DNA from: a virus
Direction: 5' to 3' (one strand)
IMG/VR virus record: IMGVR_UViG_3300044960_000920
Coordinates: 1-20,246 of that record
DNA: 20,246 nucleotides
Under the pieces are notes generated by a model that saw only the letters and a program-made list of their open reading frames with translations, made no database searches and had not been told where the DNA came from. The position numbers and the translations under genes were made by a program. Below are positions 4,180-15,899 of this stretch, piece after piece; positions within the stretch are counted from its first letter, which is position 1, and each line of letters opens with the position of its first letter.

Positions 4180-6450
4180 TCAACGGCGTTTGGTTTTCTG
4201 CATCCTGGCGAAGCTGACGCGCTCGCGCCTGGCGGGGGCGGTGCCGTCGGTGCCCGGCAGGACCACGCCTTGCATGGAGGCCGCCACGGCGCAGCCGACC
4301 AGACAATCGAGCCAGTGGTTGTCGCCGCGCTCGGGGCGCTGCTTCCATTCGTCCACCGTGCGGCCCCGGCCCTCCGTCCTGACGCGGTACTCGGCGGTCA
4401 GGTGCTCGGCGAAGAGACGGTGCATTTCCGGCTTGTCGCCAAAGAGCGACAGGCAGCCCCGGTCGCCCATCGGCACGGCAAGCCTGGCGTGGACGAAGGA
4501 TTTCCAGTAGTTGGTGTCGTAGAGCGCGTGGCGAACGGCGCGCTTGCCGTGGACGTTGGGCACGCGCCAGTTGTGCCCGACGCGGTCGCCCGGCCGGCGC
4601 TTGTACTCGCTGAACGGCTGACTCGAGGCGCCCACGAACCGGCCGTGGCTCGGCATGACCACCGAGGCGTGCGCCGACTGCCGGCAGAACTGGTAGACGA
4701 CGTCGGTCGCCGAACCCCAGTTGGCGTCGATCAGGCAGCGTTCGACCCGCAGCTCGGCTCCGTCGTCACGCCGCCAGCCTCGACCGAGGAGGCTGGCGGT
4801 CAACCGCTCCAGGCCCGCGTAAATCGCTCCTTCCAGCCCGGCCGCGCCAGTAACTCCGGCGAGCGTTAGCCTGGCGTCGCGGAGGGTGAAGTATGCCCGC
4901 TTCTGGTCGGGGAAGGTGCCGTAGTCGAGGACGTAGCCGGTGAAGTCATCCTCCCAAGCGGCCACGACAAAAAAGAGCAAGTTGGCCTGCACGTCGATGA
5001 ACGCCGTCAGGTGATTGCAGCCGACCGGCACCTCGCCGCGCTTCATGCGGTTCAGCTTGCCCGCGATCTGGTCGGTGGTCAGCTCGTCGTCGCCAGCGAC
5101 CTCCTCGGGTAACGGCTCGTTCTGGTACTCAGCATAGAACGCCGCCTCGTCCTGAAGCTTGAGGTTCATCGCATGCTGAATGGCCGACAGTTCGTCGTGG
5201 TTAAACCGCTCCGGCCAGGCGACGACCGCCCCTTCGTCCATCGCTGCCTGGTTCTGCCGGTAAAACTCGGTCGCCTCCTCGCCGGCATTGCCCTGCCGCA
5301 TGCTGTCGGCACGCACCTCGGCGTACTGCTGCCACAGCTTCTCGTTGGCCGGGAACGAGTAGACCATCTTGGTGCGCTCGCCGTTCCACTCCGGGTGCTT
5401 GTCGCGGTCGAGGATGTTGTCCGCCATGTCGCCCGGCCGGATCACCGTGCAAGGCATGATCCCAGAGATCTTTTTGCCGGGACCGGCCAGGCCGAGGACC
5501 GCGCCGGCCAGGATGCTCTCGCGCGTGGCACACTGCGACAGCGACCGCGCCGACGCGTCGGTCTGGGGGTCGTCGAGGACGACCAGGGTCGGCCGCACCG
5601 TCTTGCCATCGGCCCGCTTGTACTTCATGCCGCGGATGCGGCCGGTGATGCCAGCGACCTTGATGATCGCGCCGCTGGCGTTGCTGCCGGGGATCGTAGG
5701 CAGCACGATCTCGCGCGCGGTCCAGCCGATGTGAGTACGTTCGCCCTTGTAGAGCTGGCCGTTGCAGCGGTTGGCGATGCCGTCGAGGCACTGGACCGGG
5801 TAGACGACCTCGGGAAAGTCCTCCAGGAGCAGGTCGTTGCCATCGAGTTCCATCTTGATGGAGTCGAGCATGTCCATCGCATGCCCTTCGTCCGAGCCGA
5901 TCAAGCACACAAACTCCCGGTGCCCATAAAGCACGGCCCAGATGCAGGCGCACTCGCAGATGGTGCTCTTCCCTGAGCCCCGTGGCATCGCCAGCGCGAA
6001 CAGGCCGCCGCGCAGCACCGCCTGCTCGATGCGGGCGATCACCTTCAGGTGATCCTTGGACCACGGCAGGTGGAACGTCAGTGGGAAGTAGGTCTCGCAG
6101 AAGAAGCGGAAGTCGGACGCCGCCTTCTCCTTCCTCGCTGCGTTCACGACTGCCGGCAGTTCGCCGATGTCGCGGCCGGCCAGCGACAGCGCGATGTTGC
6201 GGGCGCGGGCGCGTTCCTTGAGGACCTCGTAGGGATCGCTTTCTGGCTCGGGCCTCGGTGTATGCCGCAGTTGCACGAGCCAGGCGACGTAGCGCAGCAG
6301 GTCCACGTGCCGGGCGTCGCCGATGCGCAAGCCGGCGCGCGAACGATGACGGTGAAGCTGGCGCTCGTTGATGACCTCGCCCAGCGGGGTCGAGTTCAAG
6401 AGCCGGCACAGCTCGCTCGGTCGCAGCTTGCGCGGGTCAATCGTGGGCAC
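4180..6450 (-). CDS. Phage terminase large subunit with an N-terminal small-subunit-like domain
   Basis: A 756-residue DNA-packaging ATPase/nuclease. The ATPase part has Walker A at residues 155-162 (MPRGSGKS) and Walker B with the acidic pair in TLVVLDDPQTD (288-298). The C-terminal part carries nuclease-like acidic clusters (FIDVQANLLFFVVAAWEDD, LIDANWGSATDVVYQF and RGDNHWLDCLVGCAVAA), in the style of large GpA-like terminases. The first 65 residues (RPSELCRLLN ... LLRYVAWLVQLR) are not part of the usual motor; they resemble the protein encoded just upstream at 6437-6655. Translation starts at GTG 6450, preceded by AAGGAG with 7 bases spacing and overlapping the upstream gene by 14 bases. 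It would cut concatemeric DNA and drive it into the prohead with a portal not seen here. Confidence 0.9.
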   Translation of the reverse strand: MPTIDPRKLRPSELCRLLNSTPLGEVINERQLHRHRSRAGLRIGDARHVDLLRYVAWLVQLRHTPRPEPESDPYEVLKERARARNIALSLAGRDIGELPAVVNAARKEKAASDFRFFCETYFPLTFHLPWSKDHLKVIARIEQAVLRGGLFALAMPRGSGKSTICECACIWAVLYGHREFVCLIGSDEGHAMDMLDSIKMELDGNDLLLEDFPEVVYPVQCLDGIANRCNGQLYKGERTHIGWTAREIVLPTIPGSNASGAIIKVAGITGRIRGMKYKRADGKTVRPTLVVLDDPQTDASARSLSQCATRESILAGAVLGLAGPGKKISGIMPCTVIRPGDMADNILDRDKHPEWNGERTKMVYSFPANEKLWQQYAEVRADSMRQGNAGEEATEFYRQNQAAMDEGAVVAWPERFNHDELSAIQHAMNLKLQDEAAFYAEYQNEPLPEEVAGDDELTTDQIAGKLNRMKRGEVPVGCNHLTAFIDVQANLLFFVVAAWEDDFTGYVLDYGTFPDQKRAYFTLRDARLTLAGVTGAAGLEGAIYAGLERLTASLLGRGWRRDDGAELRVERCLIDANWGSATDVVYQFCRQSAHASVVMPSHGRFVGASSQPFSEYKRRPGDRVGHNWRVPNVHGKRAVRHALYDTNYWKSFVHARLAVPMGDRGCLSLFGDKPEMHRLFAEHLTAEYRVRTEGRGRTVDEWKQRPERGDNHWLDCLVGCAVAASMQGVVLPGTDGTAPARRERVSFARMQKTKRR

Positions 6451-6655
6451 GCCCCATCTCCTTCAAGAGCCAGGCGCCGTAGTGGACCAGGTTGATCGTG
6501 CCGTCGGCGTTCGTGGGCGCGCCGGCCGCCACATCCGCCTGAAGCATCTCGACGGTGACCGCTTGGCCGCCCACGCGGGCCAGCAGCCGGGCGGCGTCTG
6601 CCAGCGTCAGCGCGTTCGGGTTGAGGCCGGTCGTCTCGCGGTACTCAGTTGTCAT
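6437..6655 (-). CDS. Small terminase-associated protein, possible terminase small subunit
   Basis: A 72-residue protein starting at ATG 6655 (GAGGTGGT just upstream). A longer reading with an upstream start at 6874 would cross the divergent promoter region and the amidoligase start, so I rejected it. The body (LTLADAARLLARVGGQAVTV, then INLVHYGAWLLKEMGRAHD) aligns by eye with residues 8-60 of the terminase large subunit encoded next: both have a 'L...RLL' helix, a 'V....L..... AG' centre and a 'LL/LV.Y.AWLL/LV' C-terminal helix. Its place immediately before, and overlapping, the large subunit is that of a terminase small subunit. DNA recognition at the packaging site is therefore likely but unproven. 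Confidence 0.75.
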   Translation of the reverse strand: MTTEYRETTGLNPNALTLADAARLLARVGGQAVTVEMLQADVAAGAPTNADGTINLVHYGAWLLKEMGRAHD

Positions 6656-6788
6656 ACCACCTCGCAAAAATCTCGGAATTCCTCGGGAATTCCGGGCAAA
6701 TCGCCTTGCCTTTCTCGGCACCCCCGCGCAACTGACTGATGTTCGCATGTACATCAGCGCGGCCATCCACGTTGCGAGGGACCAGACC
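6656..6788. promoter_or_regulatory. Divergent control region between terminase and amidoligase operons
   Basis: The only divergent gap in the window. It holds a perfect inverted repeat at 6674-6694 (9-base arms CGGAATTCC and GGAATTCCG around TCG), each arm being itself nearly palindromic. A second weaker one at 6738-6755 (GATGT and ACATC around 8 bases) includes the 8-base palindrome ATGTACAT at 6747-6754. These are plausible operators for one or both operons. I could not place a convincing -35/-10 pair. Confidence 0.5.
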
Positions 6789-7643
6789 ATGATCGAAGCC
6801 AACCAACTCACCTTCGGAGTCGAGATCGAGACCATTGCCCCCGCCAGCGCCGTCGCCGAGGGCGGCCTGCGCATCGGCAGCTACCGCCGCGGCATCCAGG
6901 TCCCCTACCTGCCGCCAGGCTGGACTGCCGAGTGCGACGGCTCGATCCGCGCCACCGACGGCGGCCACGCCTGCGAGATTGTCAGCCCGGTCCTCCAGGG
7001 GGCCGAGGGGCTGGCCCAGGTCGCCGAGGTCCTGCGAACGCTGCAGGCCAAAAACCATCGCGTGAACGGCTCGACCGGCGTGCATGTGCATGTCGGGTGG
7101 AAACGCAACTGGCCCAGCGAAGCCCTGGCCCGGCTGGTGACCATCGTCGCCTACGTCGAGAAGGGCCTGTACGCGATCACCGGCACCAAGCAGCGCGAAC
7201 GCGGCGCGTATTGCGGCGGGGTCCGCCGCTACGGCAACAAGGACCACGCCAAGGACCGCGTCGAACGCGGCCGTTACCACGCCCTCAACCTCACCAACCT
7301 CGCCCACGGCACCAAGGACACGGTCGAGTTCCGGGTCTTCTCCGGGTCGCTCCAGGTGGTGAAGGTCCTGGGCTGGATTCAGGTCTGCCTGGGCCTGGTC
7401 GAGCGCGCCCTGGCCGCCAAGCGGATGCCGAGCTTCAGCCCGCGGCCGCCGCGTGGCGGCTGGAAGAAGGCCGGCGAGGGCCAGAGCGAGGTCGAACGCC
7501 TGATCGGCTACCTCGCCTGGGCCCCCGGCTACGCCCGCATCCACGGCGGACGCTGCTTCGGCTGGATCGGTGGCGACATCGACCAAAACACGATCAAGGC
7601 CGAGTTCCGCCGCCTGGCCAGGAAGTACGACGCGCAACGCTAA
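6789..7643 (+). CDS. Amidoligase family protein
   Basis: A 284-residue member of the amidoligase (glutamine synthetase-like/COOH-NH2 ligase) family. These enzymes are predicted to join carboxyl and amino groups with ATP. Family motifs are seen in order: FGVEIET (residues 9-15), W-x2-E-x-DGSI (45-53), CEIVSPVLQG (62-71), STGVHVHVG (95-103), YHALNLTNL (163-171) and VEFRVFSGS (179-187); the acidic and histidine residues expected to bind metal and ATP are present. I chose ATG 6789 because GAGGG lies 8 bases upstream; an ATG at 6747 in the same frame sits inside the operator-like palindrome and lacks a ribosome site. It is first in a five-gene plus-strand operon, 18 bases before a glutamine amidotransferase. 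The partner substrate is unknown; modification of a peptide, protein or wall precursor is inference. Confidence 0.88.
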   Translation: MIEANQLTFGVEIETIAPASAVAEGGLRIGSYRRGIQVPYLPPGWTAECDGSIRATDGGHACEIVSPVLQGAEGLAQVAEVLRTLQAKNHRVNGSTGVHVHVGWKRNWPSEALARLVTIVAYVEKGLYAITGTKQRERGAYCGGVRRYGNKDHAKDRVERGRYHALNLTNLAHGTKDTVEFRVFSGSLQVVKVLGWIQVCLGLVERALAAKRMPSFSPRPPRGGWKKAGEGQSEVERLIGYLAWAPGYARIHGGRCFGWIGGDIDQNTIKAEFRRLARKYDAQR

Positions 7644-7661: not shown

Positions 7662-8576
7662 ATGTGCGGACTCTTCGGCTACCTGAGCAAGACTGGACGC
7701 GGTCCCGACCTGGACCGCCTCCGGCGCATCGCTCTCGAAACGCAAATCCGCGGCGCTCACGCCTTTGGCTTGGTGTGGGTCGCACCCGACGGCAAGCTGC
7801 ATGTCTTCAAGCGCCCCGGCTCGGCGGCGGCGAACCTGGACGCGCTCGACCGCTGCCGCGACGCACTCATCGTCGCGGGCCATTGCCGGTATGCGACGCA
7901 CGGCGACCCGGCCGACAACCGCAACAACCATCCGCATCGCGCCGGCCGCGGCTGGTTGGTTCACAACGGCATCGTTCGCAACCACGCCAGCATCGCCCGG
8001 CGCTACGGGCTGGTGCCAGAAACCGAGTGCGACAGCGAGGTGCTGGGGCTGCTCATGGCCAAGGTCCCCGGCTCGCTGCAACGCCGGGCGGCGATCGGCG
8101 TCGATGCCACCGATGGGCCGCTCGCGCTGCTGGGCGTTTGGACCCGGCCAGCCCGGTTGCTCCTGGTGCGGCGCGGCAACCCGCTCTGGATCGGCGAGAC
8201 GCGGACCGGGGCCTACTTCGGCAGCCTGCCGGGCGAGCTGCCAGAGGGCGCTCGGCCGGTCCCGGAGGGCTACGCGATGGTGCATACGCTCGACGACCGC
8301 CTGCTGGTCTCCCAAATCGGAAGCCGAAACGCGGGCTTGCCCCGCGTCGCGGTGGGTGGTTCCCGCCGCCTGAGGATGGCAGCCAGACCATCGGGAACGT
8401 CCTGGGACAACAACACGATGACCGAGAAGGATTGGGACCTGTTCTGCGAGCTGCTCGAAAAGCTGGTGTCGCAGCCGGGCTCCTGGAAGGAGAAGAAGGA
8501 GGCGGTCGAGGCCGAGGCTTCGCGCCGCGGCGCCGACACCGCGCTGGAAGAGTTCGCCGGCTGGTTTTCGGAGTGA
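7662..8576 (+). CDS. Class II glutamine amidotransferase, read through into a downstream small frame
   Basis: A 304-residue frame whose first 219 residues form a class II (Ntn) glutamine amidotransferase domain, which releases ammonia from glutamine. The nucleophile is Cys2, exposed after Met removal (MCGLFGYLS). Other hallmarks are RGAHAFGLVW, GHCRYATHGDPADN, the LVHNGIVRN strand and TECDSEVLGLL. I chose ATG 7662 because it puts Cys at position 2 and GAGGTG lies 6 bases upstream; the in-frame GTG at 7653 is part of that ribosome site. From codon 220 (GGA, 8319-8321) the frame enters a repeat element and then joins in frame a 52-codon stretch beginning at ATG 8418. The sister repeat has TGA at the codon equivalent to 220, so the original gene probably ended there. 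It probably supplies ammonia for the adjacent amidoligase or an associated ligase. Confidence 0.88.
   Translation: MCGLFGYLSKTGRGPDLDRLRRIALETQIRGAHAFGLVWVAPDGKLHVFKRPGSAAANLDALDRCRDALIVAGHCRYATHGDPADNRNNHPHRAGRGWLVHNGIVRNHASIARRYGLVPETECDSEVLGLLMAKVPGSLQRRAAIGVDATDGPLALLGVWTRPARLLLVRRGNPLWIGETRTGAYFGSLPGELPEGARPVPEGYAMVHTLDDRLLVSQIGSRNAGLPRVAVGGSRRLRMAARPSGTSWDNNTMTEKDWDLFCELLEKLVSQPGSWKEKKEAVEAEASRRGADTALEEFAGWFSE
8320..8393 (+). repeat. Two-hairpin leader-like element, copy 1
   Basis: Hairpin 1 pairs 8329-8335 (ACGCGGG) with 8341-8347 (CCCGCGT) around a 5-base loop. Hairpin 2 pairs 8349-8356 with 8362-8369 around the loop TGGTT, with a T-G wobble at 8353/8365. The unpaired tail CTGAGGATGGCAGCCA follows. 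The equivalent parts of copy 2 differ in hairpin 1 sequence and length but keep the pairing. This copy begins one base after the position where a stop codon would be, and the ATG at 8418 is 38 bases from C8380. It is currently translated as part of the amidotransferase frame. Confidence 0.7.
8418..8576 (+). CDS. Small hypothetical protein, 52 residues (internal start in the read-through frame)
   Basis: The 3' part of the amidotransferase frame, read from its own ATG, gives MTEKDWDLFCELLEKLV followed by a charged helical stretch and ending EEFAGWFSE. I do not recognise it. It is likely an independent gene or former gene, because it is preceded by a repeat element exactly as the next gene is, and because it is unlike any part of class II amidotransferases. 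A weak ribosome site (GGGA at 8404-8407) lies 10 bases upstream. Its TGA (8574-8576) is also the first bases of the second repeat copy. Whether it is made alone, as a fusion tail, or both cannot be decided from sequence. Confidence 0.55.
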   Translation: MTEKDWDLFCELLEKLVSQPGSWKEKKEAVEAEASRRGADTALEEFAGWFSE

Positions 8577-8654
8577 AGCCGAAACGCTGCGGGCAAAGTC
8601 CGCAGCGTCGCGGCGGGTGGTTCCTGCCGCCTGAGGATGGCAGCCAATCCATCG
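8575..8654 (+). repeat. Two-hairpin leader-like element, copy 2
   Basis: Hairpin 1 pairs 8584-8592 (ACGCTGCGG) with 8600-8608 (CCGCAGCGT), extendable by two pairs to an AAA loop. Hairpin 2 pairs 8610-8617 with 8623-8630 around TGGTT, with a G-T wobble at 8615/8625. The tail CTGAGGATGGCAGCCA is identical to copy 1. The first two bases belong to the TGA of the preceding frame. The next ATG (8679) is 38 bases from C8641, the same distance as in copy 1. Downstream, CTCTC (8661-8665) can pair with GAGAG (8669-8673) and cover part of the ribosome site. Confidence 0.7.
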
Positions 8655-8678
8655 CAACCTCTCTCGAGGAGAGTCACC

Positions 8679-9203
8679 ATGAAGAAGGACGAGATCAAGG
8701 TCGGCGGCACGTACCTGGCCAAGGTCAGCGACCGGGTGGTGCCGGTGCGCATCGACGCCGAGAACACGCACGGCGGTTGGGACGCGACCAACCTGCTGAC
8801 CGACAAGAAGGTCCGCATCAAGAGCGCCCAGCGCCTGCGCTGCCCGGCCAACCGCGACGGCTCGCCGCAGGCCCAGCCCGAAATCCAGGCTCCTGCCGAC
8901 GACGGTAAGAAGGCCGCAAGGGGCAAGGCCAAGAAGAGCGCCAAGGCCAAGACCGACGGCGAGGCCAAGGCGAAGAAGGTCGGCTGCCTGGACGCTGCCG
9001 CCAGGGTGCTGAGCGAGAGCGGCCAGCCGATGACCTGCCAGGAGATGATCGAGGCGATGGCCGCGAAGGGCTACTGGACCAGCCCCGGCGGTGCCACGCC
9101 TGACCGCACGCTGTATTCCGCCATCGCGCGCGAGATCACGACCAAGGCCAAGGAGTCCCGGTTCGTCAAGAGTGAGCGCGGCAAGTTCGCGCTGGCCAAG
9201 TGA
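8679..9203 (+). CDS. SH3-like plus HARE-HTH domain protein
   Basis: A 174-residue two-domain protein. Residues 1-55 (MKKDEIKVGGTYLAKVSDRV, then VPVRIDAEN..GGWDATNLLTDKKVRIKSAQRLR) look like a small beta-barrel of SH3 type. Residues 75-100 are a Lys/Ala-rich linker. Residues 100-174 (CLDAAARVLSESGQPMTCQE, then MIEAMAAKGYW ... TLYSAIAREI ... FVKSERGKFAL) match the HARE-HTH winged-helix family, which occurs in chromatin, RNA polymerase delta and restriction-linked proteins. Start ATG 8679 is supported by GAGGAG 7 bases upstream; an earlier ATG at 8637 lies inside the repeat element. A DNA- or chromatin-binding role is likely; its link to the amidoligase genes in the operon is unknown. The lysine-rich linker is a possible target for modification, which is only a guess. 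Confidence 0.85.
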   Translation: MKKDEIKVGGTYLAKVSDRVVPVRIDAENTHGGWDATNLLTDKKVRIKSAQRLRCPANRDGSPQAQPEIQAPADDGKKAARGKAKKSAKAKTDGEAKAKKVGCLDAAARVLSESGQPMTCQEMIEAMAAKGYWTSPGGATPDRTLYSAIAREITTKAKESRFVKSERGKFALAK

Positions 9204-9472: not shown

Positions 9473-9916
9473 TCATCCGGGCACCTCCGACGCAACGTGG
9501 GCCAACACGGGCGAACGGTCGGCCCCGGTTGGCGTCCGGTCCGCCTCGCGGCAACTGGACGCGACGTGGGCCAACGTGGGCGAAACGGGGGCCAAGTCCG
9601 GGGCCACGTACCGCACCGGCTTGCCAAGCTCCCGCGCGATGAGGATTTCCGCTTGCACGCCGACGCTCTCCTCCCAGCCGTCGAGCGTCAGGACCACGAC
9701 CTCGTCGCACCGCTCCAGGAACGCGCGGTCGTACCGCTCCCAGAACTGCCAGTTCTCCGGCAGCCCGTGCTGCGCCAGCGGATGGCTGTGTGTGATGGGC
9801 GAGAAGACCACCTGGCCGGCATGCAGTAAGGCGACGGCCGCGCGGCAGGCGGCGCGGAACCGCTGCTCGCGCACCGCCGGGTCCGGGTGCGAGTACGGGC
9901 TGGCCAGGTAGATCAT
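9473..9916 (-). CDS. DUF1937 family protein with a repeated C-terminal tail
   Basis: A 147-residue protein. Residues 1-108 match DUF1937, a Rossmann-like family related to nucleoside 2-deoxyribosyltransferase-type proteins: MIYLASPYSHPD at the N-terminus, FSPITHSHPLAQHGLP, WERYDRAFLERCDEVVVLTL and the GVQAEILIARELGKPV helix. Members are common in phages and are thought to act on nucleotides or related metabolites; no activity is certain. The last 40 residues are extra and contain two copies of a nonapeptide, SPTLAHVAS and SPVLAHVAS, from a 69-base direct repeat. The ATG at 9916 overlaps the stop of the diphosphohydrolase gene as ATGA, so the two are coupled. Confidence 0.85.
   Translation of the reverse strand: MIYLASPYSHPDPAVREQRFRAACRAAVALLHAGQVVFSPITHSHPLAQHGLPENWQFWERYDRAFLERCDEVVVLTLDGWEESVGVQAEILIARELGKPVRYVAPDLAPVSPTLAHVASSCREADRTPTGADRSPVLAHVASEVPG
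9489..9584. repeat. Pair of direct repeats, 69-base period
   Basis: About 27 bases at 9489-9515 recur at 9558-9584 with three differences; both contain GTGGGCCAAC (9497-9506 and 9566-9575) followed by GGGCGAA. Within the second copy GACGTGGGCC and AACGTGGGCG form a shorter tandem of about 10 bases. The period is a multiple of three, so the repeat is in frame in the overlapping DUF1937 gene and encodes its SPxLAHVAS motifs. Confidence 0.7.
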
Positions 9917-10299
9917 GCTTCCTCCTTCGCCTCATTCGGCTGCCGAGGGCCGATGTCGATGAGCGAGTCCGGCAGCCGGCCGGCGTCCACTCGCGCGTTC
10001 GTCTCCAGCGCCGCGAGCATGTTCCAGGCGGCCGCCACGAGGTGGTCCTCGTCGTCCCGGCCTGCCAGGTAAGCGAACAGGTGTCGCAGGGCTGAGTCCA
10101 TGAAGCGGCTAAGCGGAATGCCCTGCTCCCAGTTGCGGTCGCCGTACTTGGCCGCGCCCTTCTCGAAGTGCCGGGCCAGGCGGGTCACGGCCAGCGGCGG
10201 CAGCAGGTCGAACCGACCCTTGCCGGCTTGCCGGTCTCGCACCGCCCCAGTCGCAAACTGCTGGCGCTCGCCGGAGTCGTGCAGTGTGTAGTCGCGCAT
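9913..10299 (-). CDS. dATP/dGTP diphosphohydrolase-like protein (DUF5664)
   Basis: A 128-residue helical protein matching the phage DUF5664 / dATP-dGTP diphosphohydrolase N-terminal family. The core is GRFDLLPPLAVTRLARHFEK, then GAAKYGDRNWEQGIPLSRFM, DSALRHLFAYLAGRDDEDHL and VAAAWNMLAALE. The acidic and histidine residues of an all-alpha NTP pyrophosphatase-like site (E/D pairs in GRDDEDHL, H in LRHLF) are present. Such enzymes lower purine deoxynucleotide levels and occur in phages with modified nucleotide metabolism. I took ATG 10299, where TGATG joins it to the stop of the methyltransferase gene, rather than the GTG one codon earlier; AGGAG is 9 bases upstream. It is coupled to DUF1937 downstream, suggesting a nucleotide-pool module. 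The exact substrate is not shown by the sequence. Confidence 0.82.
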   Translation of the reverse strand: MRDYTLHDSGERQQFATGAVRDRQAGKGRFDLLPPLAVTRLARHFEKGAAKYGDRNWEQGIPLSRFMDSALRHLFAYLAGRDDEDHLVAAAWNMLAALETNARVDAGRLPDSLIDIGPRQPNEAKEEA

Positions 10300-11609
10300 C
10301 ACGACGATCTCCTTTCTGCCTTCTTGCCCGTGAACTGCTCGAAGCGCTGGACGATAACGTCTGCGTACAGCGGGTCCAGCTCCATCAAGAACGCCTTGCG
10401 GCCCGTCTGCTCGGCGGCGATCAGCGTCGAACCCGACCCGCCGAACAGATCGATCACGTTCTCGCCGGCCCGCGACGAGTACTGGATCGCCCGCACGGCC
10501 AGCTCGACGGGCTTCTCAGTCAAGTGGATCATGTTTTGGGGGTTGACCTTCTTGACGTGCCAGAGGTCAGTCGCGTTGTTCGGCCCGAAGAACTGGTGGG
10601 CAGCGCCTTCTTTCCAGCCGTAGAACGCGAGCTCAAAGCAACCCATGAAGTCTTTTCTCGTCAGCACCGGATGCTGCTTGTCCCACACGATGCCTTGGGA
10701 AAAGTAAAGCCCGTGCGCCTTGAGTACAGGCGGGTAGTTGCCGAGGTTCGCGTAGCCGCCCCAGATGTAGAAACCGCGTCCCGGCAGCAGCACGCGGGCG
10801 AGGTTGCCGAACCAGGCGTGGAGCATCTGGTCGAACGCTTCCTCGGAGACGAAATCGTTGGCCAGGGGGCGGTCCTTGGGCCGCAGCTTCTTGTGCGTCG
10901 GCGCCTTGGGACCCTGGCGCGCGACATCGAAGGCCTGGTGATGGTTCTGCGGCTGGGTGTTTGAGTCGCCGAACGACGACAAGCCGGCAGCGATGGCATT
11001 GTTGCTCCTTGGTTCGACCTTCACGTTGTAAGGAGGATCGGTGTTGACCAAGTGGACCGACGCGCCGTCCAGCAGCCGGTCCACGTCCTCGGGCTTGCCC
11101 GCATCGCCACAGAGCAGGCGGTGGTCTCCGAGAATCCATAAGTCGCCCGGGCGGGTGATCGCCTCGTCGGGCGGTTCGGGCACGTCGTCGGGGTCGCACA
11201 GGCCGTCCTTGACGCCGGGGTCGAGCAGCCGGGCAAGCTCGTCCTGGTCGAAGCCGAGCAGGCCGAGGTCGTAGTTCATCTCCTGCAGGCCGGCCAGCTC
11301 GATGGGCAAGAGGTCGTAGTTCCAGTCGGACAGCTCGGCGCTCTTGTTGTCGGCAATGCGGTAGGCCTTGATCTGCTCGGGCGTCAGGTCCGTGGCGACG
11401 TGGACCGGCACCTTCTTGAGGCCGAGCTTCAGCGCGGCCTTGTAGCGCGTGTGGCCGACGACGATGACGCCCTCGGCATCGACCACGATCGGCTGGCGGA
11501 AGCCGAACTCGCGGATGGATTGGGCGACCGCGTCAACGGCGTCGTCATTGTGGCGCGGATTGTTGGCGTATGGCTTGACCCGCTCGATGTCCCAGAGCTC
11601 GATGTTCAT
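10299..11609 (-). CDS. ParB-like nuclease domain fused to a DNA methyltransferase (beta class)
   Basis: A 436-residue fusion. Residues 1-95 are a ParB/Srx-like domain (VKPYANNPRHND, FGFRQPIVVDAEGVIVVGHT and RYKAALKLGL). Residues 150-430 are an SAM-dependent methyltransferase with DPPY at 191-194 and the SAM-binding FGGSGST at 389-395. The catalytic motif thus precedes the SAM motif, the order of beta-class N6-adenine or N4-cytosine enzymes. I chose ATG 11609 because GGAGG lies 6 bases upstream; an in-frame start 15 codons earlier has no such support. The ParB-methyltransferase fusion is typical of phages and is often a solitary methylase protecting DNA or regulating it; no cognate restriction gene is seen. 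Specificity cannot be read from the sequence. Confidence 0.93.
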   Translation of the reverse strand: MNIELWDIERVKPYANNPRHNDDAVDAVAQSIREFGFRQPIVVDAEGVIVVGHTRYKAALKLGLKKVPVHVATDLTPEQIKAYRIADNKSAELSDWNYDLLPIELAGLQEMNYDLGLLGFDQDELARLLDPGVKDGLCDPDDVPEPPDEAITRPGDLWILGDHRLLCGDAGKPEDVDRLLDGASVHLVNTDPPYNVKVEPRSNNAIAAGLSSFGDSNTQPQNHHQAFDVARQGPKAPTHKKLRPKDRPLANDFVSEEAFDQMLHAWFGNLARVLLPGRGFYIWGGYANLGNYPPVLKAHGLYFSQGIVWDKQHPVLTRKDFMGCFELAFYGWKEGAAHQFFGPNNATDLWHVKKVNPQNMIHLTEKPVELAVRAIQYSSRAGENVIDLFGGSGSTLIAAEQTGRKAFLMELDPLYADVIVQRFEQFTGKKAERRSS

Positions 11610-12842: not shown

Positions 12843-12905
12843 TCAACTGGCGTCAACTTGTTGACGCTCATCAGGTGTTGTTGACGGCCCTGTTGACGAG
12901 TTGAC
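12785..12905. repeat. Cluster of eight GTTGAC sites (iteron-like)
   Basis: GTTGAC or its complement GTCAAC occurs at 12785, 12830 (complement), 12842 (complement), 12852 (complement), 12860, 12880, 12892 and 12900. Most carry TG or AG before and G or A after. The pair at 12852-12865 forms a near-perfect palindrome with flanks (GCGTCAAC and GTTGACGC around TT). TAAGCGCTTA (12815-12824) and a DnaA-box-like TTATCCCG (12799-12806) lie in the same stretch. Five or more sites fall inside the 3' end of the primase-helicase gene, giving its Ser/Thr-rich tail and its stop. Binding sites for a replication or regulatory protein are the likely meaning. Confidence 0.65.
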
Positions 12906-15899
12906 AGAGGCATTCTCAAGACCCTTGCGCAAGTTGTGCACGTACTGGCGCGACACGCCGCATTGCCGGGCGATCTCCGCCAGGCTCGCCGTGGGAGACT
13001 CGCGCAGCAGTGCTTCCACCTGGGCACGTTTGGAAGTCGGTTCCTCGTCTACCGGCGATGCCGCTTGAGGCGGCGCCGTCGTGGCATAGCCCAGACGCCC
13101 TCGTCCCATGTCCCAGCGATAGACAAGCTCCACGGCCTCCGCTTTCCGCAACAGCGTCCGACACTTGAAGTCGTTGACGCCTTGCTGGTTGGCCTCCACC
13201 AGGATCGCGTCAAACAGCTTCGGTTCGTCGACAACGAAGGCCGTCACGAACCGCTCCACCGTCCATTCCGGTTCTGCTTCTTGTTTGCGTACTCTCCTCG
13301 GCTGCTCGCTCCGCAACAGCGTCGGGTCGAGGTCGTCGGCCGGCAGCCACACGGGGAAGGCCCAGCGCAGGCACCTGGGCATCACCGGCGGCCAGGAGCG
13401 AACGGCCGCCTCCAGCACAACCACGTCGTCCTCCTCGTGCGGTCGCAGGACCAGGTGGGTGTCGGTCGCCCGACTCTGGCTGCCGGCGCCTGCGCCCACG
13501 TCGGTGATGGCCTTGCCCGACTGATTGCCCTTGCTGGTGTGGTGGATGAGCACGAAGCAGCAGCCCAGGAGATCGGCGTAGCGGTCAATCGCGTTGTAAA
13601 CATTGGCCATCGTGCCGTTGTCGTTCTCGTCCATCTCGCGGGGCATGAAGCGGTACATGGCGTCGAGGATGATCACGCGGAACCGCCCCGGCTCCAGCGA
13701 GCGGAAGTATGGTCCCAGCGAGAAGATGTCCTGCCAGTGCCCGCGCAGATTCTGCACGAAGACGCGCTGTCCAACTTCACTGAGGCCGATCTGCCGCGCG
13801 GCCGCGACCCTGGGGATTCTGTTGGCTGAAGTCTCGGCGTGCAGCTCGTTGTCGATGATGAGCACGTCGCCAGCTTCGCACGCGAACGTGTGGAGCCAGG
13901 GGCGACCCGTGGCGACGGCCAGGGCCAGGTCGGTGACCAGCCAGGAATTGTGCGTGACCATGAAGTCACGGCCCGCCAAGAACAATCCGCTGGGATGGGC
14001 CACTTGAATGCATTTCACCGGAACCGATGGGACGCGGACGACCGACCGGACCGCGTCACGACGCGCCCGCTGGCTTGGTTCCCGATCCGGCAGGGCGGCG
14101 GTTCGCCGCGACAGCCGGAAGGGAGTGCTCCGCCGGCCGGCGGCGAAGGTGATCCGCAACTTAGGACTGCAATCGACGCCAGAAAGCGTGGCCCGCCCCA
14201 CGCCCGCCGACGCCTTGTACCCGAGCGACCGGGCCAGCAGGAGGGTCGGGAAGAACAGCGCCTGGTCCGTGGTGGTGAACTCGACCATGCCCGAACCGTT
14301 GGCTTGCGTGGCCGCATGGCCGTCGGCATCGAGCAGTCCCGCCAACAGTGCAGCCCGCTGCGTCTGCGAAGCAAGCAAGTAATTCTCGGGGATGTGCTTG
14401 CAGTCCAGCACGCCCAGGTCGCGCAGAATCACCCTCAACCCACAGATGGTGAACGTCGCGCAGCCGCGTTTGCAGACAAGCTTGCCGATCGTAAAGCCAG
14501 CCCGGCTAACTTCGCGGACCACTTCCTCAAGGTCGTGTTGATTGACCGAAATCGCTCCCTCACGCGCCGTGCCGTTGCCAAGCCAGTAGCCGAACAGCCA
14601 GGGGTCCAACGGAAGCGGCGCTTCGTCCCGCACCAGCGCCCTGGCGACCGGCAACAGCCAGCGGCGGCCCTGATGTCCGGCAGCGAGTTTCTCAGTTGTG
14701 ACTACTGCCATTTGGTCTCCCTGCACGACTTGCCAGAGGTGGTCCCGGTCGGCGACGACCGAGGCGCCGGAGCGGGTCGTGACCCGATAACACGGGCGGC
14801 CATACATGATTTCTGAAACGGCAACGACGGGCGTCAGCGAGCCGTCTGCGGCGTGGACCTTCATTCCGGGCTGCAACTCTGCCATCGGTTTCCACCCATC
14901 CTCGGTCAGGATCGGCGTGTCGATGGCCAGTGCCTTGCCGATCTTCGGGGCCGAGATGACGTTCATCGTCTCGCCCCGGCGCAGCAGGCCGTGGATCACC
15001 GGCGGCCGCAGGTCGGGATAGCGCGCCACCAGGTCGGCTAGGCTGACCGGGGCCAGTTGCGATGCCTGGACCAGCTGTTCCCAGTGCCCCTCGGCCATCG
15101 CGGTCGCGATCTGGTCCGGCTCGTACCGGGCGATGCTTGTGGCGATGCGCTCCACCTCGGCCGGCTCAATCCGTGGCCGGCAGCGGTCGTCGTTGACCTG
15201 GCACAGCGCCGCCAGGATTTCCGACCGAGTCATCCCCACGCGGCGCATCGTGCCGGCGAGGCGCGCCAGAGTCACGTTACGGTGGTGTTCCGGGATCGGG
15301 TTCGCTTCGCCCCCGCTGGCCGCGACAGTACACGACGTGGATGTGCCGTTGACCCACGGGTTGGGCGTCGTCGTCAGTGCGTCGAGTTCCGCGATCAACC
15401 ACGCCGGCGGCTCGGGAAGACGGTCGGGCGGCTCGTCGAGTTCCAGGCCCGGCGCCCAGCGGTAGTCGCCGTGTGCGGTTCGGCTGGGCGGCACGACGAT
15501 GTAGCCGCCGTCGGTGCGAACATCGACGCTCGCTGCCAGTTTGCCGGTCGAACACTTCCACGCTTTGTCCGCCGGCCGGCGAAAGAGGTAGTGCCGCCCG
15601 CCGCGCGGCGTCAGGCTCACGGCACCGGTCTGGGCCAGGGAAGCGCCGCGTTCCGGGTCGCCGGGCCAAAGATTGCCGTCGCCGTCGATGTCGATGACGA
15701 CGAGGCCTTCCGTCGGGATGCCGATGTTGGCGCTCGGGTGCTGCGTCCACCAGCGCTCGATCTGCTCGGCATCACTCGTGGCATCGTGGAAGCCGTGCTC
15801 GGTCAGCGGAGCTTTGCCGGAGGGCGCGCAGGGGAAGACCCGGTAGCCCAGTTCGGCATAGCGGAGCGCAGCCGCCAGCAGCTCGCCAGGGGTCACCAC
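12843..15899 (-). CDS. Primase-polymerase/RepA-like helicase fusion, interrupted by an intein
   Basis: A 1018-residue precursor; without the intein (residues 323-651) it is 689 residues. Residues 1-170 are a bifunctional primase-polymerase domain (LRYAELGYRVFPCAPSGKAP, the catalytic acidic VIDIDGDGN at 68-76 and RGGRHYLFRRP). Residues 200-260 resemble a primase C-terminal domain (HRNVTLARLAGTMRRVGMTR, then the EVERIATSIARYE helix). A RepA/RecA-like ATPase follows, with Walker A SAPKIGK-S split by the intein, Walker B RVIILDAMYRF (741-751) and LIHHTSKGN (784-792). Residues 958-994 form a helix-turn-helix (LAEIARQCGVSRQYVHNLRK). The start GTG 15899 follows GGAGG by about 7 bases and overlaps the helicase gene by 7. 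The Ser/Thr-rich tail is encoded by GTTGAC repeats. Splicing is needed to rebuild Walker A, so ATPase function depends on it. Confidence 0.93.
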   Translation of the reverse strand: MVTPGELLAAALRYAELGYRVFPCAPSGKAPLTEHGFHDATSDAEQIERWWTQHPSANIGIPTEGLVVIDIDGDGNLWPGDPERGASLAQTGAVSLTPRGGRHYLFRRPADKAWKCSTGKLAASVDVRTDGGYIVVPPSRTAHGDYRWAPGLELDEPPDRLPEPPAWLIAELDALTTTPNPWVNGTSTSCTVAASGGEANPIPEHHRNVTLARLAGTMRRVGMTRSEILAALCQVNDDRCRPRIEPAEVERIATSIARYEPDQIATAMAEGHWEQLVQASQLAPVSLADLVARYPDLRPPVIHGLLRRGETMNVISAPKIGKALAIDTPILTEDGWKPMAELQPGMKVHAADGSLTPVVAVSEIMYGRPCYRVTTRSGASVVADRDHLWQVVQGDQMAVVTTEKLAAGHQGRRWLLPVARALVRDEAPLPLDPWLFGYWLGNGTAREGAISVNQHDLEEVVREVSRAGFTIGKLVCKRGCATFTICGLRVILRDLGVLDCKHIPENYLLASQTQRAALLAGLLDADGHAATQANGSGMVEFTTTDQALFFPTLLLARSLGYKASAGVGRATLSGVDCSPKLRITFAAGRRSTPFRLSRRTAALPDREPSQRARRDAVRSVVRVPSVPVKCIQVAHPSGLFLAGRDFMVTHNSWLVTDLALAVATGRPWLHTFACEAGDVLIIDNELHAETSANRIPRVAAARQIGLSEVGQRVFVQNLRGHWQDIFSLGPYFRSLEPGRFRVIILDAMYRFMPREMDENDNGTMANVYNAIDRYADLLGCCFVLIHHTSKGNQSGKAITDVGAGAGSQSRATDTHLVLRPHEEDDVVVLEAAVRSWPPVMPRCLRWAFPVWLPADDLDPTLLRSEQPRRVRKQEAEPEWTVERFVTAFVVDEPKLFDAILVEANQQGVNDFKCRTLLRKAEAVELVYRWDMGRGRLGYATTAPPQAASPVDEEPTSKRAQVEALLRESPTASLAEIARQCGVSRQYVHNLRKGLENASVNSSTGPSTTPDERQQVDAS
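13947..14933 (-). mobile_element. Class 3-type intein with LAGLIDADG endonuclease domain
   Basis: An in-frame insertion of 329 residues (323-651 of the primase-helicase precursor) between Lys322 and Ser652 of Walker A. It starts with Ala instead of Cys/Ser (ALAIDTPILTEDGW), has the block B histidine and tryptophan (ADRDHLW, H387 and W389), Cys630 in block F (VKCIQVAHPSGLFLAG) and Thr649 before the terminal His650-Asn651 (FMVTHN). Trp, Cys and Thr at these places with no N-terminal nucleophile are the signature of class 3 inteins, which form the branched intermediate through the block F Cys. Ser652 is the +1 residue. Two LAGLIDADG motifs lie inside: LFGYWLGNG (435-443) and LAGLLDADG (519-527). 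Splicing looks intact; the endonuclease may not be (Asn442 replaces the usual acid). Confidence 0.93.

Follow-up and report, generated by a model that had tools for sequence, protein, structure and literature searches.

What are the two closely similar elements that lie among the small genes of this virus, and what might they do there? The window, which is the whole virus record of 20,246 bases, carries genes for a serine recombinase, terminase, primase-polymerase and recombination functions on its minus strand. The plus strand cluster begins with a putative amidoligase gene (6642..7643; Pfam PF12224, 2.7e-21), followed by a glutamine amidotransferase (GATase_6) open reading frame (7662..8576; Pfam PF13522), the first element, a small reading frame for a 52-aa protein (ORF2, 8418..8576), the second element, a gene for a HARE-HTH protein (8679..9203; Pfam PF05066, 1.2e-12) and a zinc-ribbon gene. 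The ORF2 protein had no Pfam or PHROG match, and within the loci recovered ORF2 was seen solely beside type II hammerheads. No tRNA was found in the window.

Identity and anatomy of the two elements

Judged by their sequence, the two elements belong to the type II hammerhead ribozymes (Rfam RF02276), with self-cleavage predicted. An Rfam search placed two separate matches over the gathering threshold of 37 bits, at 8322-8388 for copy 1 (42.4 bits) and at 8577-8649 for copy 2 (41.5 bits), with E-values of 8e-6 and 1.5e-5. These separate matches, together with the strong covariation among 34 relatives, place the two copies far beyond chance. The original prediction had assigned the elements to no known family, and this does not hold; the features it described are explained by hammerhead anatomy, its first hairpin being stem III and its second stem I. 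The common start, loop and tail that it noted correspond to a direct repeat (8344-8393 and 8605-8654, 92% identical), and the first hairpin does differ between copies in sequence and by 6 bases, while the sequence differences between copies preserve pairing. Of the pair counts it gave for that hairpin, 7 is correct for copy 1, and the geometry gives 11 rather than 9 for copy 2.

Copy 1 (8323..8385, plus strand) is delimited by the Rfam match, geometry and covariation. Its stem II (8323-8325/8378-8380) encloses the core segments GAAA (8326-8329) and CUGAGGA (8370-8376), the latter followed by a U at 8377; stem III has 7 pairs (8329-8335/8341-8347), C17 lies at 8348, stem I (8349-8356/8362-8369) is closed by a UGGUU loop (8357-8361), and the pseudoknot tail AGCCA occupies 8381-8385. 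Copy 2 (8578..8646, plus strand), delimited by the Rfam match and geometry, has the same plan: stem II at 8578-8580/8639-8641, GAAA at 8581-8584, CUGAGGA at 8631-8637 with U 8638, an 11-pair stem III at 8584-8594/8598-8608, C17 at 8609, stem I at 8610-8617/8623-8630 with loop UGGUU at 8618-8622, and AGCCA at 8642-8646. The catalytic core is complete in both, including an A-U pair at A15.1-U16.1 and the cleavage triplet GUC (NUH). Geometry and covariation agree that stems I and III are closed by loops and stem II is open. Loop I and the 3' tail can form five pairs, the pseudoknot seen in the majority of type II hammerheads. Placed from the hammerhead core (NUH^), the predicted cleavage sites, both GUC^GCG, fall at 8348..8349 and 8609..8610 on the plus strand, and a 261-nt RNA carrying ORF2 (8349..8609) is the calculated product of the two cuts. 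In both copies one further U separates CUGANGA from stem II (CUGANGA-U-GGC). It recurs in 110 of 117 relatives among the matches listed, where the search pattern itself demanded one base at this point, and is missing from other phage copies (L194 at position 681, and L134).

Other kinds of element were considered and set aside. The sole trace of a riboswitch was a sub-threshold c-di-GMP match on the other strand, which was dismissed. No inverted repeats or transposase indicative of a transposon or an attachment-site repeat occur at the copies; the repeats are direct, not inverted, with no transposase between or beside them, and the transposon end that would have contradicted the original prediction finds no support. 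A purely coding function was also rejected, as the stretch of protein encoded across copy 1 varies freely while the RNA pairs are kept.

Relatives, covariation and placement

A pattern scan of viral contigs recovered at least 120 stretches, and among these at least 117 non-redundant matches form good stems III and I; since the pattern called for a GCC/GGC stem II and a single intervening base, these numbers are lower bounds with a slight bias. Among the matches rejected for lack of stems, L003, L043, L086 and L103 were chance coding matches, and L035 and L047 fell to the strict stem rule though they look like true hammerheads. Standard pairs fill 96.1% of the pair cells in an alignment of 34 relatives, against 79.3% after shuffling, and 100 cells show double changes against 24.8 in shuffles; sliding the pairing partners lowers pairing to 36-59%. 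The pseudoknot is paired in 93% of cells over the 34 sequences, with double changes (G-C to U-A) at one pair. Runs of at least 5 pairs between loop I and the ribozyme's own tail occur in 56% of cases, compared with 25% for swapped tails and 32% in the highest of 200 swaps. The original prediction would have been refuted by a search returning just two copies with no pairing elsewhere; the search returned well over a hundred paired relatives. Its proposal of selection on RNA structure is borne out by a self-cleaving ribozyme motif, and its suggestion of a processing site agrees with the same motif, for which cleavage here is predicted from the family.

The position of the ribozymes relative to genes follows a strict rule: stop, ribozyme, start. 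Among the matches listed, 93 of the 169 ribozymes with flanking sequence have a stop codon closing an open reading frame within 10 nt upstream (4.4% at random positions), 133 of 169 have the ATG of an open reading frame within 60 nt downstream (30% at random), and 73 of 169 have both (1.5% at random). In a larger set, again among the matches listed, 167 of 191 distinct ribozymes begin within 35 nt after such a stop. The start at an upstream stop codon described for both elements is thus correct for copy 2 (TGA, 8574-8576) and incorrect for copy 1, where the upstream reading frame stays open to 8576 and the preceding 90 nt hold no stop in any frame. The distance of 38 bases to the next ATG, counted from the GGC, is right for both copies (8380 to 8418 and 8641 to 8679) and is not a constant of the family, the relatives mostly having 15-45. 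Single viral records may hold arrays of 6-20 copies, for example 9 ribozymes in a 6.1-kb contig. The 112-kb viral contig L009 (IMGVR_UViG_3300033112_000310) has 20 hammerhead matches within its initial ~14 kb, nearly one per gene.

A proposed role in dividing transcripts and the loss of a stop codon

Family membership, structure and placement are established at the level of sequence. For function, we propose that both ribozymes cut the polycistronic phage mRNA cotranscriptionally into separate messages, a reading to which we assign a probability of about 0.8. The RNA of each element would fold during transcription, the UGGUU/AGCCA pseudoknot would dock loop I onto the 3' tail, and cleavage after GUC at 8348 and 8609, as expected from the family, would split the polycistronic RNA. 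In the type II layout each cut would fall between two closed hairpins, such that stem III would form the end of the upstream RNA and stem I the beginning of the downstream one, whose 5'-OH end would be paired and lie 70 nt ahead of the ATG. Hairpins on both new ends might shield the messages from nucleases, and neighbouring genes might then be expressed and decay independently. The stop-ribozyme-start placement agrees with such splitting of transcripts. In an earlier study, clustered phage hammerheads were proposed to divide long transcripts, and tandem phage hammerheads were found to cleave in vitro, an Agrobacterium set also doing so in vivo in Escherichia coli (PMC3088659).

Two points count against the cutting model. 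For copy 1, taken as the motif alone, the hammerhead is the minimum-energy fold (-30.4 kcal/mol). With the pseudoknot left out, copy 2 has an alternative fold that is 3.1 kcal/mol better; this alternative, which pairs the stem II strand with the start of stem I, is also favoured for copy 1 with its flanks, in an energy model that cannot score the pseudoknot. In addition, ribosomes translating the open reading frame that contains copy 1 could block its folding.

The calculated 261-nt product raises the question of whether the pair serves to release and circularise this RNA, as do retrozymes and viroid-like RNAs. The two ribozymes share an orientation and bracket one open reading frame at a spacing near the known size of ribozyme circles. 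The relatives do not conform to such a unit, with one copy in L172, three in L214 and 20 in G008, widely varying spacing and varying content between copies (two genes in L052). Neither an RNA replicon nor a ligase was evident here, RtcB not being found in six related virus records, and Perreault et al. sought circular products and detected none (PMC3088659). A circular RNA role is accordingly less likely, and we regard it as highly improbable.

Copy 1 departs from the placement rule because the upstream amidotransferase gene has, from sequence comparison, lost its stop. In the related locus L170 the GATase gene ends in TGA immediately ahead of AGCCGAAA, and in L171 and L172 it ends in TAA at, or two bases before, the L170 stop point. 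The window (8319-8321) and L169 have GGA where L170 has TGA, a change of UGA to GGA in the RNA, and the GATase frame (7662..8576) runs through ribozyme 1 into ORF2 without an indel, with predicted cut 1 falling exactly between two of its codons. The window and L169 are ~95.7% identical over GATase (28 of 657 nt differ), and the window's state was found again in three metagenome records. Both flanking genes are under purifying selection (dN 0.024 and dS 0.099 for GATase; dN 0.012 and dS 0.223 for ORF2). Across the linker over ribozyme 1, 8 base changes alter 7 of 33 residues with a dS of 0, and the window/L169 differences within copy 1 preserve its pairs. Because linker residues change while pairs stay, it is the RNA that has been kept and not the linker peptide. 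With the ancestral order of stop, then ribozyme, broken, predicted cleavage at copy 1 would leave a GATase message stripped of its stop.

It is conceivable that copy 1 has thereby become a switch within the gene: uncleaved RNA would give a GATase-ORF2 fusion, cleaved RNA a stopless GATase message whose product would be tagged by trans-translation and destroyed, and the speed of the ribozyme relative to ribosome coupling would set the dose. The recurrence of the stop-loss state in two lineages and three metagenome records, the open frame with its cut between codons and the selection on both proteins fit this idea, as does the fact that, among the 191 distinct ribozymes listed, no long open reading frame through a ribozyme was found outside the window's own lineage. 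The linker, however, is not conserved as protein (7 of the 8 base changes alter residues), ORF2 retains its own ATG, and relatives differ widely in the GATase C-terminus, so that a read-through tail may be merely tolerated. We consider the switch unlikely; in the unlikely event that it exists, ribozyme 1 would be the first natural ribozyme to control a bacterial or phage protein by a non-stop switch.

Decay offers another view of the same state. A third, degenerate hammerhead precedes ORF2 in L052 (~5147-5215), its stem I and pseudoknot weakened, and the gene upstream (4787-5173) has entered it and has its stop inside it. L052 shows that ribozyme decay does happen, and it is possibly a later fate of the stop-loss state. 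That one or both copies in the window are likewise inactive remnants is very unlikely, since both retain every core base, complete stems and the pseudoknot, and copy 1 has kept its pairs in the face of the changes between the window and L169.

The order GATase, ribozyme, ORF2, ribozyme, HARE-HTH is shared by L165 and L168-L171, L172 has GATase, a single ribozyme and HARE-HTH, and in L052 the order is ribozyme, another gene, ORF2, ribozyme, HARE-HTH. Over its 5' part, the stem III half, the L172 ribozyme agrees with copy 1 at 25 of 26 positions, whereas its 3' leader matches copy 2 at 33 of 37 without gaps and copy 1 at 26 of 33 with gaps; this points to a chimeric ribozyme that would have arisen by recombination between the copies in their common middle, through either loss or gain of ORF2. 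The mobile cassette boundary raised by the original prediction finds some support here, in a locus without the middle gene and with one chimeric ribozyme. The copies could even matter mainly as DNA, as short near-identical repeats at gene borders for gene swapping by homologous recombination, and the L172 ribozyme and the differing genes between ribozymes among relatives are in keeping with this. Compensatory stem changes and free variation in the sequence of stem III nevertheless need selection on RNA rather than on DNA identity, which makes the proposal unlikely as the main explanation; recombination via the copies is compatible with transcript splitting as a side effect.

Known systems and wider occurrence

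Perreault et al. described type II hammerheads, their pseudoknot and clusters around single prophage genes in 2011 (PMC3088659), so that the family, its circular permutation, the pseudoknot and the phage clusters are already known. The elements studied here share with those bacterial and prophage ribozymes (RF02276, PMC3088659) the permutation, the open stem II, the core, the pairing of loop I with the 3' tail and the clustering around single phage genes, and differ in the planctomycete phage host range, the constant HARE-HTH neighbour and a copy within an open reading frame that has lost its stop. The Agrobacterium tumefaciens triple hammerhead around ardA, which was active in vitro and in vivo, is similar in the excision of one or two small phage genes by ribozymes, which is predicted here; other genes are involved in our case, and the text available to us reports no stop loss there (PMC3088659). 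Retrozymes and viroid-like circular RNAs (PMC4918200, PMC7761336) also use tandem hammerheads to release a unit RNA, a release that is predicted here, whereas theirs are mostly of type I or III in eukaryotes. What is new is this member with its stop-loss copy, together with the chimeric ribozyme, a quantified placement rule and an unannotated array in Streptomyces phage R4.

The R4 region searched (L204, NC_019414.1 41000-51071) holds nine type II hammerheads over threshold within 41.8-49.5 kb. Three small coding sequences in the annotation (gp60.1, gp67.1 and gp75.1) overlie ribozymes, and for gp72, gp76, gp77, gp79 and gp81 the annotated start falls within a ribozyme or shortly before one; some of the small phage "genes" in annotations are thus ribozymes. 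In the phage collection, an 801-base R4 stretch holding two ribozymes matches 132 phage records, nearly all from Streptomyces. A literature search on hammerheads in Streptomyces phages returned one paper, on aminoglycosides, whose accessible part mentions no such ribozymes; a hammerhead ribozyme is bound by aminoglycosides, which, as described there, block phage infection early (PMC9239200). One idea is that ribozyme-rich Streptomyces phages may be hit by aminoglycosides via their hammerheads. Why phages carry hammerhead ribozymes has been a standing question since 2011, to which the present case adds a strict stop-ribozyme-start rule, one natural exception and signs of recombination between copies. 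With nine copies in an isolated Streptomyces coelicolor A3(2) phage, R4, the question is open to direct test.

In the contexts of relatives, the HARE-HTH gene is the most constant downstream neighbour of the type II hammerhead, and metagenome-assembled genomes of Gemmatales and other Planctomycetes have the same ribozyme ahead of HARE-HTH genes, which supports a planctomycete host for this virus. Two further genes on the minus strand of the window are of separate interest. The primase-polymerase/helicase gene (12846-15899) is split between P-loop residues (GK...SW) by an apparent intein with a LAGLIDADG endonuclease and alanine as its first residue. At 9913-10302 lies a dATP/dGTP diphosphohydrolase N-terminal domain (PF18909), of a family associated with phages having altered adenine.
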